From the IMG/VR virus record IMGVR_UViG_3300025769_001066, positions 1-20,725 of that record: a stretch of 20,725 nucleotides of DNA. One strand, written 5' to 3'. Below, piece by piece: positions 2,594-16,089 of this stretch; within the stretch, counting starts at the first letter, position 1, and the number at the start of each line of letters is the position of its first letter. The DNA comes from a virus. The translations under genes and the position numbers were made by a program. The notes beneath the pieces were generated by a model. It did not search any database and had not been told where the DNA came from. It saw only the letters and a list, made by a program, of their open reading frames with translations.

Positions 2594-2892
2594 TGACAAA
2601 ACATAATGAGCATTATTGGGAAGTGGGTAGAAATGGATATATTGCAAATACCACTGGAGATAAAAGAATACCATCTTATTATATAGGAAAGTATCATAAA
2701 TACGAAGCTCGCAAAGTAGTAGAAGACTTTGATCTTTCGTATAACTGTGGGACAGCAGTCACATATATTTTGCGTGCAAAACGTAAACATAAATCACCAA
2801 TAGATTGCATTACAAAAGCAATAGCTCATTTAGAATTTGAATTAGAAAGATTAAAACATGAAAGTAAAGAAAGTAAAAAGAAAGACATTTAA
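2593..2892 (+). CDS. DUF3310-family protein
   Basis: A 99-aa protein. Residues ~47-87 match the DUF3310 pattern: NCGTAVTYILRAKRKHKSPIDCITKAIAHLEFELERL corresponds to the family's GNAxKYxxRAxxK...DLxKAxxYLxxE. DUF3310 proteins are common in phages and are sometimes labelled nucleotide kinase-like, but the biochemical role is not settled. The N-terminal half (HYWEVGRNGYIANTTGDKRIPSYYIGKYHKYEARK) is not the usual short PxHY entry and may be a lineage-specific extension. The start shares a base with the previous stop (TAATG), and the Lys-rich tail overlaps the next gene by 35 bp. Confidence 0.75.
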   Translation: MTKHNEHYWEVGRNGYIANTTGDKRIPSYYIGKYHKYEARKVVEDFDLSYNCGTAVTYILRAKRKHKSPIDCITKAIAHLEFELERLKHESKESKKKDI

Positions 2893-3715
2893 AATTAGGC
2901 CTTCTGGTAGGTCAACAGATTTTATATCACCAAGCTTTGGTTATGGTTGCCTCTATAATTGTTCATACTGTTATATGAAGCGCCATATGCCTTTTGGTTT
3001 AGGTGTAGCAACTAATACAGAAGACATACTTACTGAAATAAACTCGCATGCAGCATTTGCACAAATAGAAAAACCTAATCAAACGCATGAAAAATATATT
3101 ACATACGATATAAGCTGCAATGAAGATTTTGCTTTGCACGCTAAACACCATGAGTGGGAAAAAATATTTACATTTTTTAAAAATCACCCTGACATTATGG
3201 GTAGTTTTGCTACTAAATATGTAAATAAAGATTTGTTATATTTTGATCCTAAAGGAAAAATACGTATTAGATTTAGTTTAATACCGCAAAATAAAGCTGA
3301 TTTACACGAACCAAATACATCAAAAATTATAGACAGAATATTAGCTATTGATGCTTTTACATTTGCTGGTTACGATGTGCATGTAAACTTTAGCCCTATA
3401 ATGGTGTATGATGGATGGCTAAATGATTATTTTGAATTATTTAGATTAATGGATAAGTATATAGAAATTAAAGAAAATGTTTTATCAGAATGTATATTTC
3501 TTACACACAACATAGAAAGACATACTTTAAATCTTAAAAACAATCCAAAAACAGAAATAGATTTATGGGTTCCTAATATACAAGAAACTAAAATATCAGA
3601 ATATGGATGTGAAAATATTAGATATAATTACAAGTTAAAACGTGAATACATTAAACAATTTAAAGACTTACATGATAAGGTAATACCTTGGAATAAAATT
3701 AGATATATATTTTAA
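2858..3715 (+). CDS. Spore photoproduct lyase-like radical SAM enzyme
   Basis: A 285-aa protein. Residues 28-40 hold the radical SAM motif C31-x3-C35-x2-C38 (GYGCLYNCSYCYM), which binds a [4Fe-4S] cluster to cleave S-adenosylmethionine. The rest follows spore photoproduct lyase (SplB): C87 in DISCNED aligns with the H-donor Cys of SPL (C141 in B. subtilis, in a CTSD context); FATKY...KIRIRFSLI (117-142) and EPNTSKIIDRI (151-161) match conserved blocks; HVNFSPIMVYDGW (175-187) matches the 'APIYIHEGW' region. Y37 and Y39 flank C38 as the radical-relay tyrosines do in SPL. SPL reverses a UV-induced thymine dimer. The N-terminus is shorter than in Bacillus. The 35-bp overlap with the upstream gene makes the start at 2858 plausible. 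The substrate is unproven. Confidence 0.85.
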   Translation: MKVKKVKRKTFKIRPSGRSTDFISPSFGYGCLYNCSYCYMKRHMPFGLGVATNTEDILTEINSHAAFAQIEKPNQTHEKYITYDISCNEDFALHAKHHEWEKIFTFFKNHPDIMGSFATKYVNKDLLYFDPKGKIRIRFSLIPQNKADLHEPNTSKIIDRILAIDAFTFAGYDVHVNFSPIMVYDGWLNDYFELFRLMDKYIEIKENVLSECIFLTHNIERHTLNLKNNPKTEIDLWVPNIQETKISEYGCENIRYNYKLKREYIKQFKDLHDKVIPWNKIRYIF

Positions 3716-4171: not shown

Positions 4172-4289
4172 ATATATCTTACATAGATTAGGGTTTCATA
4201 ATAAAAATTGTAGAAGAAGAGTCTATACTACAGAGCAAGATTATTTATGTTTAATAACGGGCAACACCCATAAAAAATTTGAACTATGA
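4152..4289 (+). CDS. Small basic protein (43-45 aa)
   Basis: A short frame that overlaps the preceding gene by 20 bp (14 bp if the second ATG at 4158 is used) and ends in an ATGA overlap with the GroES-like gene. The product MIMKRIKYILHRLGFHNKNCRRRVYTTEQDYLCLITGNTH... is basic with two Cys. The ATGA junction is good evidence for translation, and coupling would tie its expression to the co-chaperonin. No homologue recognised. Confidence 0.55.
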   Translation: MIMKRIKYILHRLGFHNKNCRRRVYTTEQDYLCLITGNTHKKFEL

Positions 4290-4546
4290 TACAAATGATA
4301 AACAACAAAGTTTTAATAACGCCAGAAACTGTAAAGGAGACAACAGAGTCAGGAATAATATTATCTAAAGCAGAAGCAGAAATTCCTAATACAGGAACAG
4401 TTGTTTCTGTTGGTAATAAAGTTAAAGAATTAAAAGAAGGAGATTATGTTATATATCAACCCATGCATGCTATGAAAATTAATCATGAAGATGTTGATTA
4501 CTTAATGTTTCCTGAGTCAAGTATAATAGCTAAAATAAATAAATAA
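4286..4546 (+). CDS. GroES-like co-chaperonin (Cpn10)
   Basis: An 86-aa protein, slightly shorter than bacterial GroES (~97 aa), covering the Cpn10 fold. Residues 6-13 (NNKVLITP) are the first strand. Residues 16-30 (VKETTESGIILSKAE) are the mobile loop, with GIIL in place of the GroEL-binding GIVL. GTVVSVG (37-43) and EGDYVIY (51-57) are the conserved core strands, and PESSIIAKI (76-84) is the C-terminal strand. GroES caps GroEL during folding. Phage versions such as T4 gp31 alter the GroEL cage to suit phage proteins. No GroEL partner lies in the window, so it would work with host GroEL. The start overlaps the upstream mini-gene; an internal Met4 is an alternative. Confidence 0.87.
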   Translation: MIQMINNKVLITPETVKETTESGIILSKAEAEIPNTGTVVSVGNKVKELKEGDYVIYQPMHAMKINHEDVDYLMFPESSIIAKINK

Positions 4547-8156: not shown

Positions 8157-8636
8157 TTATTCAGGTATAATATCAAAATCTACATATTCAATAGTTACGT
8201 CTTGTCCTGATTTTATCGCTTTAGCAATATTTGGATATATTCTTTTGTACGCATTAGTTGATTTCCCAATGAATCCATCCTTAATAATGATGTTGTTTTC
8301 TTGTGAATCACCCACAAGTAAACATCCAGCAGTATGAGAATCATCATTGCCAGTGTGTATAAGAATCCATTCAAAACCTGGGACATCAATAATATGTAAC
8401 ATCCCTTTATGAATAGACGAAAATCTTTTTTTATATTTTTCATGAAAACCACCTTCAGTTCTTAATTTAATTTCATAAGTACCAGCAGGCACTCTTGTTT
8501 CTCCTCTTATTTTTAAAGCCCTAGCCTCATCTTCTAGCGTATAGCATAGAAATTCTAAACCTAGGTCTCCCTCTAAAAAAAGTAAACCAGAAGTGCTATC
8601 CTCCTGGCTACTAAATCTTAATACTTTAAGCTTCAT
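8157..8636 (-). CDS. DUF5675-family protein, candidate peptidoglycan-active enzyme
   Basis: A 159-aa protein resembling DUF5675: CYTLEDEAR (31-39), RVPAGTYEIKLR (48-59), VPGFEWILIHTGNDDSHTAGCLLVG (85-109). The H94-T-G-N ... G104-C105 arrangement recalls the His/Cys active site of L,D-transpeptidase (YkuD)-like folds, though that relation is inference. Phage DUF5675 proteins are often found with lysis or tail genes. No conventional endolysin (amidase, lysozyme or M23 peptidase) is visible in the window, so this is the best candidate here for a cell-wall enzyme. The start is preceded by an A/T-rich run and a 71-bp gap. Confidence 0.75.
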   Translation of the reverse strand: MKLKVLRFSSQEDSTSGLLFLEGDLGLEFLCYTLEDEARALKIRGETRVPAGTYEIKLRTEGGFHEKYKKRFSSIHKGMLHIIDVPGFEWILIHTGNDDSHTAGCLLVGDSQENNIIIKDGFIGKSTNAYKRIYPNIAKAIKSGQDVTIEYVDFDIIPE

Positions 8637-9829: not shown

Positions 9830-10222
9830 TTATTTTTTTACCTTTTCTAAAGATCTTCCTCCAAAATAAGCTCCAATAACTGTTATTAATACTAACTGCA
9901 ATAAATCAACCCAAGTAGATTTTACTTCAAAATTTAATGCACCTGCATCTATAAATATTAATAACATAGTACACACTATTAAAAATATTAAAACCATTGG
10001 CCTAACATTTTTACTAAGCCATGAGTCTGATTTTAAATCTGCCTCCCAACGAGATGTAATATTTTTTTCCATCTCTATTTCATAATTAGAAATTAATTCT
10101 TTTATCTTTCTTTCTGCTTCAAGCTTTTCTTCTTTAGATGTATGTAAATTATCTATAACACCACCAACACCTTTTACAAGATCAGCTGCTCCGCTAGAAA
10201 ATATTTTTGTTAATATACTCAT
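9830..10222 (-). CDS. Holin-like membrane protein (GTA-holin '3TM' type)
   Basis: A 130-aa protein. Residues ~25-60 form a charged coiled-coil (TSKEEKLEAERKIKELISNYEIEMEKNI). SDSWLSKNVRP (65-75) leads into two membrane segments, ~76-94 (MVLIFLIVCTMLLIFIDAG) and ~104-121 (WVDLLQLVLITVIGAYFGG), ending in the basic tail GGRSLEKVKK. This layout fits the 'holin of 3TMs, for gene-transfer release' family, in which SWxxRP...FGGRSxEK is typical. Holins permeabilise the inner membrane to time lysis. It could alternatively be an unrelated virion-associated membrane protein. Two bases separate it from the poly-Asn protein gene upstream. Confidence 0.72.
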   Translation of the reverse strand: MSILTKIFSSGAADLVKGVGGVIDNLHTSKEEKLEAERKIKELISNYEIEMEKNITSRWEADLKSDSWLSKNVRPMVLIFLIVCTMLLIFIDAGALNFEVKSTWVDLLQLVLITVIGAYFGGRSLEKVKK

Positions 10223-10224
10223 AA

Positions 10225-10485
10225 TTAATATCCGCCTCCTCCGCCTCCTAAATTATTATTATTGTTATTATTGTTGTTATTGTTGTTGTTAAACTGAACA
10301 TTTGCACCATTTAATCCTTGTGAAGAAGAAGCAGCAGCAGCATGAGTGGTGCCTCCCATATAGCCTTGAACTCCTTGAAACATATGAGTATGAAAGCCTT
10401 GCTGACCATTAGCTAAAGCCCATTGTGTTGCTTCTTGTGGTGTGCTATATAAAGGCACTCCACTTATTGTTGTTAATATTGGCAT
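10225..10485 (-). CDS. Small protein with poly-Asn tract and Gly-rich tail
   Basis: An 86-aa protein. Residues 1-46 (MPILTTISGVPLYSTPQEATQWALANGQQGFHTHMFQGVQGYMGG) look folded and contain HTH-type metal-friendly histidines (H32, H34). Residues 47-64 are Ala/Ser-rich. Residues 66-78 are thirteen consecutive Asn, followed by L-G6-Y. The low-complexity tail suggests a flexible linker or virion tip. It sits between two holin-like genes with 2-3 bp gaps. No family recognised. Confidence 0.65.
   Translation of the reverse strand: MPILTTISGVPLYSTPQEATQWALANGQQGFHTHMFQGVQGYMGGTTHAAAASSSQGLNGANVQFNNNNNNNNNNNNNLGGGGGGY
10252..10290 (-). repeat. AAY trinucleotide run encoding 13 Asn
   Basis: Thirteen uninterrupted Asn codons, a mix of AAT and AAC, lie within the 86-aa protein. 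Because the unit is three bases, slippage would change the tract length without breaking the frame. The mixture of AAT and AAC reduces slippage relative to a pure repeat. Confidence 0.8.
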
Positions 10486-10709: not shown

Positions 10710-13502
10710 TTATTTTATTTTTATTTTCTTTTCAATACTTCCATCACTATAAATATAAAAAAGCAAATTATTATTATTATTTTTTGCAGGTCTTCCTAAT
10801 AAATCTGTAATCATTATTAATTCTTTTTTATCATATCTGCTAAATAAAGGCCCAGACCAAGTTCCTGTACAATAATCATAAGTAGCTTGACATATTGTAT
10901 CCCATTCATTTTCACAACAGTAATCATCTACTTCTATTACCCAAGCGTAACATTCATCATTTAAAAAGAAAGGATTTCCAGATCCATTTATACACCAGGT
11001 TGCAGCATATAAACACCCTAGAGAGTCATGCCCGTGATTTATGTTTGCTAAAGGATTATAATTCCATGCGTTTAAATCCATACATCCCTGAACCACTTCA
11101 ATACACGAACCGTTATCAGTATTAGCTGTTGAATCATAATTAAAAGCAGTACTATCCATACAACCATAAACATAAGAAATGCAATTAAAATCTTCTGTAT
11201 TAGCTTCTGGGTTAAAGTTAAGCATTGAGGGGTCAGTACAACCGTAAATATAAGGAATACAAGAATTATTATCAGCATTTGCTAAAGGGTTATAATTAAA
11301 CATTGTGCTGTCTATACAGCCGTAAACAAATGGTATGCAAGACCCATTGTCTATATTTGCTAATTGATTATAATTAAACATCGTAGGGTCTGTACAGCCA
11401 TATACTATATCTATGCAGCTATTATCTTCTACATTAGCCAACGGGTCATAGTTAAATGCATTAGGATCCATACAGCCATAAACAACACCTATGCAACTAC
11501 CGTCATCAGTGTTAGCGTCAGGGTTATAATTAATAGCTATACTACTAGTGCAGCCAGTTACAACAGGTATGCAATTACCAGCTGTATTAGCACTTGCATT
11601 ATAATTAAATGCTAAAGGATTCATACAACCTACAACTACTGCTATGCAACCACCATTATCTACGTTAGCAGAAACATCGTAATTAAAAGCATTTATGTCT
11701 GTACAACCAAACACCGCTAAGTTAACACAACTAGTGTCATCTATATCAGCGGTATAACCTTGCGTGTAATATTCTAAATAAGCTGGAGATGTACAACCAG
11801 GACTGTAATAACACGTGTCAGAAGTATTAGCTGTATCACTATAATTATAAGCTGTAGCATCTAAACAACCAACTATTACATCTATACACTCGTTACCACA
11901 GTAAGGTAAAGCAGCGTGAATATCTTCTGGATTTTTAAAATCTCTTAATTTGTTTTCGTTTGGACCAGGCCAAGGGTTATTACCTTCATAAAGTATAACA
12001 CCATAATTGTTTTCTAGTTTAAATGAATTTTGTATCGTCTGTATATCTAACTGTTGAGGATTTTGCTGAGGAGTTGGTACCTCAAAGTAATACACGTAAA
12101 CTTCTTTGTAAGCGCTTAAAGATAAATTAAATGTATCAGAATAAATACCTATTGAATCAATTTTAAATTGCCACAAAGAATCACCTTGTCTTACACCTAA
12201 CCAACAATTACCCCATGAATCACCACCTGCGTCATATAATATTAAATTATAATCACAAGGAGTTGTTAGTTCCATTTTATCAGCCAAAGGATCGTAGTTA
12301 AAAGCCAGAGGATCTGTGCAGCCGTAAGTAGCTAAATTGGTACACGACCCATCATCTGTGTTAGCAAACTCATTATACTCTACATAGTTGTCATCCATAC
12401 AACCAAGTATTGGTGTATTACCATCACAAACACCAGCGACATAAGGAGTTGACGATGCGCTAAACCCAAAGTTAGGTGGGTTTAAATTAAATATAGTATC
12501 AAGACAATCTGTATTAGTAACTAAACAACTACCAACAACCGCGCCCCCTCCAATACCATCACCGTAAGTATCATTAATAGTAAAGACTATAGTATCTCCA
12601 ATAGGTACACATACTTCTGTATATACAGTTTGCCCAACTTGTGTGTAGTCATAAGTTCCAGATGGTATAGACTGTATAATGTTACCGTTAGCTTTTATTT
12701 CCCAATAAGTTTCAGCAGGCCAATTATCTAGTAATATAGCTATTTCAATTAATGATTGATTTACATTACAAGCAACCTCCATTACACATGTACCGTTATC
12801 TATATTAGCCCATGGGTTATAATTTTCAGCTAATGAATCCATACAACCAAGAACATAAATACAACTACCATTACTAACAGTCGCTAAAGGATTATAATTT
12901 GGAGCTACAGAATCAGTACAGCCAAAAACAACAGCAAAAGCATCACTAACTTTTACATCATCAATACATATATCACTAGTATATAGAGAACCAGTGTTAC
13001 CTACAAAAGCTATTTTAAAGTCATGTTGTAAGTTTAGACTATCTAATGGGTAATAAGCAAAATGCCAAGGCATACCTTGATCACCATCGTAAGCGCCTAT
13101 AAATATATAATTACCCATTACATCTATAGCTGCTATTTCTAGCTCACCCATTTCAGGACCAAACATATGGTACCAAAAAGATAACACTTTACCAGGAGTA
13201 GATGATACATCAAAAATAGGAGTGTAGCTTATAAATTGTTTATTAGGATAATTAGGATGAGATGCTTCTACATAAAAATAAGTACCACTACCTGTAGTGT
13301 GATCTCCAGTAGGTCCAGTGTTAAACGAAGAGGTTGGTCCTTGATTTAAAAGCCAGTCTCCATCATCATTTGGGTCTTGCTCTAAAGGAATATTACCTTC
13401 AAAATTATTAGCCCAAGGAAAAGTATTTACCTGCGAACAACACTCTTTAGGCGCGCCACAAGAAACTATTATTAATGCTAATAGTAATATTATTCTTATC
13501 AT
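10710..13502 (-). CDS. Large exported protein: signal peptide, MAM-like domain, GCTD repeats, T9SS-type sorting domain
   Basis: A 930-aa protein. Residues 1-16 are hydrophobic (MIRIILLLALIIVSC), with a possible lipobox IVSC at C15. Residues ~28-190 resemble a MAM-type adhesion domain (WANNFEGN...DDGDWLLNQGPT...DICIDDVKVSD). Fifteen GCTD...NYNP-A-N-D-GSC units each hold a Cys pair: two at 192-240, two at 366-417, one at 543-565, one divergent at 568-594, and nine in tandem at 597-830. Two inserted beta-rich domains lie at ~245-362 and ~418-542. Residues ~836-878 form a Cys-rich knot (DDYCCENEWDTICQATYDYC). Residues 888-930 (LIMITDLLGRP...LFYIYSDGSIEKKIKIK) resemble a type A T9SS C-terminal sorting domain. 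Predicted fate: export by Sec, then across the outer membrane by host T9SS. A lipoprotein anchor and a T9SS signal together would be unusual. Start overlaps the 56-aa gene by ATGA. Confidence 0.85.
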   Translation of the reverse strand: MIRIILLLALIIVSCGAPKECCSQVNTFPWANNFEGNIPLEQDPNDDGDWLLNQGPTSSFNTGPTGDHTTGSGTYFYVEASHPNYPNKQFISYTPIFDVSSTPGKVLSFWYHMFGPEMGELEIAAIDVMGNYIFIGAYDGDQGMPWHFAYYPLDSLNLQHDFKIAFVGNTGSLYTSDICIDDVKVSDAFAVVFGCTDSVAPNYNPLATVSNGSCIYVLGCMDSLAENYNPWANIDNGTCVMEVACNVNQSLIEIAILLDNWPAETYWEIKANGNIIQSIPSGTYDYTQVGQTVYTEVCVPIGDTIVFTINDTYGDGIGGGAVVGSCLVTNTDCLDTIFNLNPPNFGFSASSTPYVAGVCDGNTPILGCMDDNYVEYNEFANTDDGSCTNLATYGCTDPLAFNYDPLADKMELTTPCDYNLILYDAGGDSWGNCWLGVRQGDSLWQFKIDSIGIYSDTFNLSLSAYKEVYVYYFEVPTPQQNPQQLDIQTIQNSFKLENNYGVILYEGNNPWPGPNENKLRDFKNPEDIHAALPYCGNECIDVIVGCLDATAYNYSDTANTSDTCYYSPGCTSPAYLEYYTQGYTADIDDTSCVNLAVFGCTDINAFNYDVSANVDNGGCIAVVVGCMNPLAFNYNASANTAGNCIPVVTGCTSSIAINYNPDANTDDGSCIGVVYGCMDPNAFNYDPLANVEDNSCIDIVYGCTDPTMFNYNQLANIDNGSCIPFVYGCIDSTMFNYNPLANADNNSCIPYIYGCTDPSMLNFNPEANTEDFNCISYVYGCMDSTAFNYDSTANTDNGSCIEVVQGCMDLNAWNYNPLANINHGHDSLGCLYAATWCINGSGNPFFLNDECYAWVIEVDDYCCENEWDTICQATYDYCTGTWSGPLFSRYDKKELIMITDLLGRPAKNNNNNLLFYIYSDGSIEKKIKIK
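11013..11714 (-). repeat. Nine tandem ~75-78-bp GCTD repeats
   Basis: This part of the 930-aa gene encodes nine back-to-back units of ~24-26 residues with consensus (V)YGC-(T/M)-D-x-x-A/M-F-N-Y-N/D-P-x-A-N-x-D-N/D-G-S-C-I. Units differ at the nucleotide level, so the array is old or diversifying rather than freshly amplified. The last unit carries a six-residue insertion (NHGHDSLGC). Each unit probably closes a disulfide loop, giving a rigid rod outside the cell. Confidence 0.85.
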
Positions 13503-13674: not shown

Positions 13675-14037
13675 TTATCTTTTTCCGCCATGATATTCTA
13701 CAGCATGACCATCTTTAATTAATTGTTCGTTTATACAACATTCTCCTTTTTCGGTTTCTATATGAAGAGTTCCTAAAACCCTTCCATATTTTCCTACACT
13801 TTGACTTTCTAATATAAAAAAATTATTTTTATTTGTTTCATTAATCATTACTATTAATGCGTCTTTTGCAGCAAGACCTCTAGCCTTTTCTTCTAAATCT
13901 CTAGTTCTAGACTCAGGGGTATTAATTCCAGCTAATCTAATTCTTTTACGAACTATAACATCAAACCCTAAATCTATTTCAGCATCTAATGTGTCACCGT
14001 CTACTACTCTATCTAATTTTGCTTTATATGTATACAT
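13675..14037 (-). CDS. Staphylococcal nuclease (SNase)-like protein
   Basis: A 120-aa protein covering the SNase OB-fold core. RVVDGDTLDAEI (10-21) gives D13 and D15, equivalent to D19/D21 of micrococcal nuclease. RIRLAGINTPES (32-43) gives R34, T40 and E42, equivalent to R35, T41 and E43. KYGRVLGTL (83-91) gives R86, equivalent to R87. So both catalytic Arg and the Glu are present, but the Ca2+ ligand D40 is replaced by N39. SNase homologues cleave single- and double-stranded DNA or RNA. No signal peptide is seen, so it may act inside the cell or be packaged. Its start shares a base with the stop of the thioredoxin-like gene (TAATG). Confidence 0.87.
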   Translation of the reverse strand: MYTYKAKLDRVVDGDTLDAEIDLGFDVIVRKRIRLAGINTPESRTRDLEEKARGLAAKDALIVMINETNKNNFFILESQSVGKYGRVLGTLHIETEKGECCINEQLIKDGHAVEYHGGKR

Positions 14038-14399
14038 TAAAAATCACTCATTAATATGTTATCAATCTCTTCTTGAACTTCTTTTTTTGTTGCAACCATT
14101 TTAAAACTAAGATCAGCCTGAAATCTAGCAACCTCAACATCATCTTTAAATATTATAATAGTAGGTATAACAGCTATTTTATTTTTTTTAGCTAATTTTG
14201 GTTCTTTAGCTATATCTATATAAGATATTGTTTTAACATCTGTTAAATCATGCACCCAGCCTACCTCATTATTTTTATTCCACTCTGCATTATATTGCGC
14301 TATTTGTATTTGTCCAAAGGCTGTGCTAGACAATAAAACAAAAAGTATAATACCAAAATACACAACATATAATCTCCAACTAACATCTACTTTATCCAT
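14037..14399 (-). CDS. Exported thioredoxin-fold protein lacking the CxxC motif
   Basis: A 120-aa protein. Residues ~10-30 (LYVVYFGIILFVLLSSTAFGQ) are a signal peptide or anchor with a likely cleavage before Q30, a site type common in Bacteroidetes. The remainder follows a thioredoxin fold: QIAQYNAEWNKNN (32-44) is where AEWCxxC is expected, but no Cys is present; YIDIAKEPKLAKKNKIAVIPTIIIFKDDVEVARF (60-93) holds the central beta-alpha-beta unit with the cis-Pro motif (IPT, P79). Without the Cys pair it cannot do disulfide exchange, so a binding or structural role is more likely. It lies between a TM/coiled-coil gene and the SNase gene, with one-base TAATG overlaps on both sides. Confidence 0.75.
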   Translation of the reverse strand: MDKVDVSWRLYVVYFGIILFVLLSSTAFGQIQIAQYNAEWNKNNEVGWVHDLTDVKTISYIDIAKEPKLAKKNKIAVIPTIIIFKDDVEVARFQADLSFKMVATKKEVQEEIDNILMSDF

Positions 14400-14680
14400 T
14401 ATCTATTATACAATTTATCTTCAATTTTTTCAAGAGTCTTTTTTATTTCCTCTACATCTGACTGTGTTGTCATAATAGTATTACGTATCATTTGATCTTT
14501 CATGTCAAACTCCATTCTTGTTACGTCTGGAGGTAAAGGTTCTGGCAACTGCTTAGCCTCTTCTATATCGGCTTGTAAGGCAAACCACATTCCTATTATA
14601 GTTGCCATTGCAAAACCTATAGCAATTAATGTTTTAATGCTTACCTGAAACCCTGTGTCTTCATTTAATTCTTTAGCCAT
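14399..14680 (-). CDS. Single-pass membrane protein with coiled-coil tail
   Basis: A 93-aa protein. Residues ~15-36 (IKTLIAIGFAMATIIGMWFALQ) form a TM helix, followed by a Pro-rich hinge (QLPEPLPPD, 44-52) and a probable coiled-coil at 55-92 (RMEFDMKDQMIRNTIMTTQSDVEEIKKTLEKIEDKLYNR). The helix-hinge-coil layout is spanin- or holin-accessory-like, but no family is certain. It is coupled through one-base TAATG overlaps to the XhlA-like gene upstream and the thioredoxin-like gene downstream. Confidence 0.68.
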   Translation of the reverse strand: MAKELNEDTGFQVSIKTLIAIGFAMATIIGMWFALQADIEEAKQLPEPLPPDVTRMEFDMKDQMIRNTIMTTQSDVEEIKKTLEKIEDKLYNR

Positions 14681-14886
14681 TATTTAAACATCATTTTTGT
14701 AACTATACCTATTATAGAAGTAAAAAATATTCCAAGCCAGATTCTTGCAGATTTTCTAAAAGAAGTATTAACATTAATACGAGCAATTACACCATCATCA
14801 GGATCAAGAAGACGTTTTTTTATTTCTCTTACGTCTTTCTTAAGCTCAACTAATTCTTCGTGTAATTGTTCGTTAGTTCTCTCCAT
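14680..14886 (-). CDS. XhlA-like coiled-coil/TM protein
   Basis: A 68-aa protein. Residues 5-28 are a charged amphipathic helix with heptad spacing (NEQLHEELVELKKDVREIKKRLLD), followed by a linker and one C-terminal TM helix at ~49-66 (IWLGIFFTSIIGIVTKMM). Size and layout match haemolysin XhlA-type proteins, which work with holins in phage lysis. Distinguishing it from other tail-anchored phage proteins needs profile comparison. It opens a chain of TAATG-coupled genes ending at the SNase gene. Confidence 0.65.
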   Translation of the reverse strand: MERTNEQLHEELVELKKDVREIKKRLLDPDDGVIARINVNTSFRKSARIWLGIFFTSIIGIVTKMMFK

Positions 14887-14973: not shown

Positions 14974-16089
14974 TTAAAATATAACATAATTAACTCCAAA
15001 TTTAAAATCATACCACTCTCTGTTCCAATACTTATTATATTTTGCTTCAAAAAAGTACCCTAAATGTTTATCTATTTTAACGCCAAATATTAATCCTGCT
15101 GAGTAGTCATACCACTGCTCTCCATTATTATAATTATGATAAGAAAACTCACTACCGTCATCATAATGATATGGTAGTAAATTACCCCAAGCATGCACCC
15201 ATTTGTTTTTACTATACTTATAATAATCAAACCCTATTATAATTGAGTGTTGTATTTGCTTTTTTAGCTCAAGCCTCTTCTTTTGTCTGTAGTCAGCAAT
15301 TACTTGCGGGACCACAACCTCCTTCCAAACTTCTGCGCTATTAGCAACTATGTTTCCGCTAGGGTCTTTATACTCACTATTTGCTACGTCTATGGTATAC
15401 CCTTCCTGTATCGCTAAGTAAGTGTAATGCAAATTTCCATTATCCAAGATCCATTCTTCTAGCGGATTATATCCATAAGGCTCTGCTAATCTATGAGCAA
15501 GCCCTATACTAAATGCCAAGTCAGCATTTTTTTTCATTCTATATCTTTCTGATAATTCAAAGTACTCTATATCAGCAAAACCATCTTTTAAATATTCTAC
15601 TTTTGCCGCAAAATGATCTACACATAAAGGCCCATCACAATCATCATCAGAACTATATCTAATAAAATGATGCTGGTCTATATAGTCTACACCTTGCTGT
15701 CTTGCATAATCTATCTCAAATAAATACTCAAATCCTTGCACCTTTCCTACAGTAGCAGCATCTGTATAATTAGACTCTGTACCATCATAAAAAGTATTTG
15801 CTCTATTTTCATATCCAAATCTAGCAATTTTTCTAATACCCATTGTAAAAGAGTAATCGTATGGTGTTACTATTAAATTTTCTTGTAACTGTCCAGAAGT
15901 AACAGAAAAAGTTTTTACATCTGATACAGAAGTCCCTCCATTTACAGCTCCATAAATAGTAGAAAATTTTAAATGTTTTTTGAAATTCTTTTTTAAATCT
16001 ATATCTTTTATATAGTCTAAATAATTAATTTGACCTTTTGTAAAAAAAGAAAAAAACATACATAACATTAAAATTAGATTATATTTCAT
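14974..16089 (-). CDS. Outer-membrane beta-barrel-like protein with signal peptide
   Basis: Start taken at the ATG at 16089 because it gives a normal signal peptide (MKYNLILMLCMFFSFFTKGQ, cleavage probably before Q20); an ATG at 16113 would add 8 polar residues and overlap the LamG gene by 14 bp. The mature ~350 residues are rich in aromatic, alternating strands (HHFIRYSS, FAAKVEYLKDGFADIEYFELSERY, HSIIIGFDYYKYSKNKWVHAWGNLLPYHYDD, WYDYSAGLIFGVK, REWYDFKFGVNYVIF). The protein ends in Phe after an amphipathic strand, as expected of a BAM-recognised beta-signal. It should reach the outer membrane of the infected cell or associate with the virion. No enzymatic motif. Phage-encoded barrels can mask receptors, but that is inference here. 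Confidence 0.75.
   Translation of the reverse strand: MKYNLILMLCMFFSFFTKGQINYLDYIKDIDLKKNFKKHLKFSTIYGAVNGGTSVSDVKTFSVTSGQLQENLIVTPYDYSFTMGIRKIARFGYENRANTFYDGTESNYTDAATVGKVQGFEYLFEIDYARQQGVDYIDQHHFIRYSSDDDCDGPLCVDHFAAKVEYLKDGFADIEYFELSERYRMKKNADLAFSIGLAHRLAEPYGYNPLEEWILDNGNLHYTYLAIQEGYTIDVANSEYKDPSGNIVANSAEVWKEVVVPQVIADYRQKKRLELKKQIQHSIIIGFDYYKYSKNKWVHAWGNLLPYHYDDGSEFSYHNYNNGEQWYDYSAGLIFGVKIDKHLGYFFEAKYNKYWNREWYDFKFGVNYVIF

Follow-up and report, generated by a model that had tools for sequence, protein, structure and literature searches.

The two-component spanins of the Rz/Rz1 type consist of an inner-membrane coiled-coil protein and an outer-membrane partner, encoded by small overlapping genes near those for the holin and endolysin. 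To our knowledge, no spanin built on a barrel has been demonstrated so far. Phages also encode other outer-membrane proteins, including lambda Lom, the Lc porin of PA-2 (whose gene lies beside the lysis genes), Cor and Llp. Kongari et al. regard it as unsettled how phages without recognised spanins rupture the outer membrane; they count Croceibacter and Bacteroides phages among these and name as a possibility that 'an OMP could act as an o-spanin' (PMC6139136). Bacteroidetes phages are described elsewhere as using exclusively unimolecular spanins (PMC12596118). In bacteria, the PorV and PorP-like carriers, which are 14-stranded barrels of the FadL type, are known to hold T9SS cargo at the cell surface (PMC9143113), and genes with T9SS sorting domains have been described in cryophages (PMC7468147).

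The locus described here lies in a 20,725-base virus record (the window, i.e., the whole stretch of DNA that was analysed), which is probably a fragment, and shares features with each of these systems. Similarly to Rz/Rz1, a probable inner-membrane protein with a likely coiled coil and an outer-membrane partner are encoded near holin and endolysin genes, and small genes overlap. Here, however, the outer-membrane partner is a predicted barrel, mostly without a lipobox, and there is a third component, a thioredoxin-fold protein (Trx); named spanin families gave no match in the libraries searched. As with Lom, Lc/NmpC, Cor and Llp, a virus gene specifies an envelope protein, and the location of Lc by lysis genes is a further likeness, but the present barrel has no Pfam match and belongs to a fixed three-gene module. 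As in the cryophages, linked phage genes carry T9SS sorting domains, whereas the available portion of that report describes no linked module of barrel, Trx and TM93, the third protein of the present trio.

The gene under study (14974..16089, minus strand, start at 16089) is an open frame of 371 codons encoding a protein of 371 aa, and the plus strand of the same interval is full of stops. The ORF is real and not a chance reading frame, since 396 stretches in IMG/VR encode relatives, those listed being 66-85% identical to it over nearly the full length. IMG/VR scans with four different members returned 396, 547, 123 and 276 confirmed relatives, sets that may overlap, and the best 80 relatives from each scan were kept. 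The kept loci form two groups, subfamily 1 (L001-L245) and subfamily 2 (L251-L331), which are ~33% identical to each other; subfamily 2 proteins are 30-37% identical to the window protein. Each of ten records checked held one barrel copy, and L029 held two.

The family is very common in IMG/VR, in ocean viral contigs, and is unnamed in the libraries searched. Homology searches with the barrel produced zero matches in Pfam, PHROG, NCBIfam and PDB sequences; nothing appeared in Pfam or PHROG at E 1, including Lom and porin-type families, and no NCBIfam family was matched by the window barrel at E 1. The tblastn search of INPHARED (50,697 phage records) with the barrel found nothing, and tblastn with several divergent barrels, TM93 or Trx gave no convincing homologue in cultured phages. 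A scan of genome contigs yielded four MAG loci, with one relative in a Sphingobacteriales MAG. Two loci, L082 and L083, were rejected as host copies and treated as viral contigs binned with bacteria because their viral neighbours are the same as at the family loci; among 395 genomes of the class of the L082 MAG, the single match was that MAG itself. The T9SS tails and the type of export signal suggest that the hosts are probably Bacteroidota.

Read by eye, the N-terminus of the barrel, MKYNLILMLCMFFSFFTKG, is a Sec-type export signal, and the residue that follows the likely cleavage site is Q. The signal peptide (residues ~1-19) is followed by a helical N-linker (20-40) and 12 predicted strands between residues 44 and 369, with a partly helical loop of 75 residues (203-277) placed outside by our topology. 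The C-terminus ends in YDFKFGVNYVIF. The initial annotation had pointed to a terminal Phe beta-signal; F is indeed the commonest last residue in subfamily 1 (F 169, R 34 and L 28; n=240) but is no constant of the family, as subfamily 2 barrels end mostly in L or R. The window barrel has no lipobox. By a rough regex classification, 65 of 246 barrels have a lipobox-like segment followed by PKxCCxQ, and most others have an ordinary signal ending before Q. Across the family (window 16033-16089; L001-L245) the export signal alternates between this lipobox-like CxxPKxCCxQ module and the ordinary type, and a quick FastTree of 156 barrels requires at least 25 switches between them. Because the signal type changes so often, the lipobox-like signal was set aside as support for an o-spanin.

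AlphaFold, which the initial annotation had proposed as a check on its claim of an outer-membrane barrel, predicted such a fold. The AlphaFold2 model had a pLDDT of 69.5 with an alignment of 44 sequences and 75.7 with a broader alignment of 57; by our count, this moderate-confidence model has 12 long strands and a partly helical insertion. Top PDB fold matches of the first model were outer-membrane barrels (KdgM, Z 15.5; NalP, Z 14.9; NanC, Z 14.7), as were the leading matches of the second barrel model, for which Tsx had the highest Z (13.6). The predicted meander of amphipathic strands and the export signal support an integral outer-membrane beta-barrel, with closure judged from the fold matches only. 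Residues 91-116 are conserved, yet model confidence there is low. In BFVD there was one strong match, the unnamed viral protein A0A516LKJ4 (E 1.7e-22, 23% identity), which by fold is a probable distant homologue of the barrel; it was not recovered by tblastn in INPHARED.

Several of the best fold matches (KdgM, NanC, Tsx) are channels, which could indicate a nutrient or small-solute channel that aids the infected cell as a metabolic extra. We consider this highly improbable, as a shared barrel fold says little and a channel leaves the fixed Trx and TM93 partners and the lysis linkage unexplained. Matches to OMPLA and OmpT-type enzymes and to solute channels were not read as function, given the shared barrel fold and ~10% identity.

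The partners of the barrel were identified by de novo clustering of neighbours at 190 non-redundant subfamily 1 loci, many of them cut by contig ends. Ranked by occurrence, the clusters were barrel (190), a repeat protein (169), Trx (163) and TM93 (148), and the next cluster outside this cassette was found at 91 of 190 loci. In subfamily 2, Trx was present at 79 of 81 loci and TM93 at 78 of 81. TM93 (14399..14680, minus strand), assigned to the core by linkage, has by eye an N-terminal hydrophobic segment followed by a likely coiled coil, and its gene overlaps each neighbouring gene by one base. In the subfamily 2 loci L278-L281, L292 and L298, the TM93-Trx pair is duplicated and flanks the barrel gene on both sides.

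The Trx gene (14037..14399, minus strand) had been annotated as an exported thioredoxin-fold neighbour. The product does look exported and thioredoxin-like, although its Pfam score is just below the cut-off (PF00085, E 2.3e-4) and the CxxC is missing: the window protein has AEWNKNN in place of the typical AEWCGPC while keeping VIPT, and CxxC occurs anywhere in only 15 of 314 Trx homologues. Of the proteins compared with the barrel, Trx is the one whose pairwise distances correlate best with those of the barrel (r 0.72-0.80 for subfamily 1; 0.63 for subfamily 2), although TM93 often sits between both genes. The correlations are modest (TM93, 0.45; other linked genes, 0.59-0.70 with the barrel), and short proteins are noisy. 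We read the barrel-Trx value as a hint that the two proteins may be in contact.

The fourth member of the cassette, an exported Cys-rich repeat protein (10710..13502, minus strand), has a MAM domain, GCxD..NY..AN..DDGSC repeats and a lipobox-like LIIVSC plus PKECCSQ export signal. A CxxPKxCCxQ-type module like that of the barrels is found on it in the window (13440-13502), L040 and L076, and a short poly-Asn run occurs near its end. Its description as a T9SS-type protein holds for relatives, which carry T9SS sorting domains (of 41 family tails scanned, 17 match TIGR04183 and 5 match the type C model), but not for the window copy, whose C-terminus matched none of the NCBIfam models, including TIGR04183. 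The presence, at most subfamily 1 loci, of a protein whose relatives have sorting domains of type A or type C would suit a barrel that carries or anchors it in the manner of PorV or PorP/SprF, which likewise are outer-membrane barrels near T9SS-type cargo, here in probable Bacteroidota hosts. This explanation is improbable, however, because all 81 subfamily 2 loci lack the cargo while the subfamily keeps barrel, Trx and TM93. In addition, the model has 12 strands rather than 14, and the barrel matches no NCBIfam or other profile and has no paired-Cys C-tail of the SprF kind. The 50 fold matches listed include no solved T9SS carrier, though one could lie further down. Since the trio is kept in both divergent subfamilies and the T9SS-type protein in only one, we regard barrel, Trx and TM93 as the core envelope module.

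The same comparison bears on the earlier suggestion that the infected cell surface is remodelled, or superinfection excluded, by a barrel that occupies or masks the outer membrane. A viral barrel beside other exported products stands, as judged from sequence and predicted fold, and so does the lysis linkage. The barrel fold, its export signal, the usual presence of a T9SS-type surface protein beside it in subfamily 1 and the PA-2 precedent, also by lysis genes, are all consistent with remodelling. On the other hand, what is conserved beside the barrel is a probable inner-membrane protein and a redox-dead exported Trx rather than a surface protein, the repeat protein being missing in subfamily 2. 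Moreover, the loops to which we gave an extracellular position show about the same conservation as the strands, which is not the usual pattern in a barrel that masks a receptor or serves as an adhesin. We hold remodelling to be unlikely, although a surface function expressed late keeps some probability; the wider evidence agrees somewhat better with a role linked to lysis.

The initial annotation placed the barrel next to the lysis genes. In the window, the nearest such gene with profile support is a holin (9830..10222, minus strand; PHROG 3427, E 1e-29, with Pfam GTA_holin_3TM just under the cut-off) that lies ~4.8 kb away; linkage is seen across the family. Further off, a DUF5675 protein (8157..8636, minus strand) with an HTGN..HTAGC motif (PF18925, E 1.3e-26; also a weak match to Tlde1 that stays below the cut-off, E 0.0024) is perhaps a peptidoglycan enzyme. 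Subfamily 2 loci have an M15 hydrolase in 69 of 81 cases, at a median gap of 625 bases, and a holin-like protein in 42 of 81; those M15 and holin proteins that were tested belong to PHROG 894 (endolysin) and PHROG 3427 (holin) by profile match. With DUF5675 counted as a hydrolase, a hydrolase or holin lay within 6.5 kb at 29 of 30 subfamily 2 and 65 of 96 subfamily 1 loci with enough flank, leaving 31 of the 96 with no recognised lysis gene within that distance. On contigs longer than 100 kb, 12 of 16 had a lysis gene within 6.5 kb, several with an amidase right after Trx; by our estimate, one randomly placed lysis site would give ~1/8, a comparison weakened by contig kinship and extra hydrolase genes. 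The family-wide data thus support lysis linkage better than the window alone.

The location of the module beside holin and hydrolase suggests a role in lysis, and the spanin literature (PMC6139136, PMC12596118) leaves room for a barrel. We put at about even the chance that the trio spans the envelope as a module that serves in lysis or is timed with it, perhaps in the manner of a spanin whose outer-membrane partner is the barrel. The virus-encoded barrel would sit integrally in the outer membrane, TM93 would be anchored in the inner membrane with its coiled coil in the periplasm, and Trx would be a redox-dead exported fold in the periplasm. Barrel and Trx would bind each other, and TM93 would tie both to the inner membrane. 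Made late, alongside holin and peptidoglycan hydrolase, the module would act at lysis and, once the wall is cut, would disrupt the outer membrane or join it with the inner membrane, a spanin-like job with a barrel in place of a lipoprotein. Subfamily 1 would add the T9SS-type surface protein, which has no obvious place in lysis and counts against the lysis reading. That genes lie close together does not establish what they do, and late genes are clustered in any case.

The same predicted outer-to-inner-membrane span beside holin genes, together with the conserved outer loops, would also fit a sensor that informs the holin of a signal from the surface or envelope and sets the moment of lysis without breaking the outer membrane. 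Such a part has no known relative and a spanin-like role fits the data equally, and we consider a sensor very unlikely. The most specific form of the lysis reading, a three-part spanin system of marine Bacteroidota viruses in which the barrel replaces the o-spanin lipoprotein and the redox-dead Trx bridges to the inner-membrane coiled-coil protein, is tentative and less likely than not. The module is a candidate new way for viruses to break the outer membrane, common in ocean viral contigs and not detected at the sequence level in the cultured-phage collection searched (INPHARED). If this is true, it would give a function to an abundant unnamed family and to an exported thioredoxin fold without an active site. 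The trio is defined well enough for standard spanin-complementation testing.

No ORF for a small lipoprotein turned up in a pattern scan of the window, which therefore has no classical o-spanin candidate. Within 4 kb of the module, small lipoprotein ORFs were found in 22 of 245 relatives and in 24 of 81, the latter being subfamily 2, and those of subfamily 2 are possibly ordinary o-spanins, a point against the spanin-like reading of the barrel. Examples are L251 9074-9397, L278 10246 and L292 9570, and one recurring type, which contains ITHVLAVT, lies near the M15 gene.

The remaining neighbours are less constant. Between TM93 and the barrel, a 68-aa protein (14680..14886, minus strand) with a C-terminal hydrophobic segment is holin or XhlA-like by eye; it had no match in Pfam and a weak one to a PHROG of unknown function, and was found at 16 of 85 loci. 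The SNase-type nuclease (13675..14037, minus strand; PF00565, PHROG 452) is a frequent neighbour outside the core and occurs at 1 of 81 subfamily 2 loci. An ORF at 10225-10485 ends in a poly-Asn and poly-Gly run. The ORF at 2858-3715, with a Cys-rich N-terminal motif, appears radical SAM or photolyase-like by eye and has relatives in 11 of 190 loci. Also by eye, a GroES-like ORF lies at 4286-4546 of the window, and L251 carries GroEL-like (31-1638) and GroES-like (1855-2133) ORFs.
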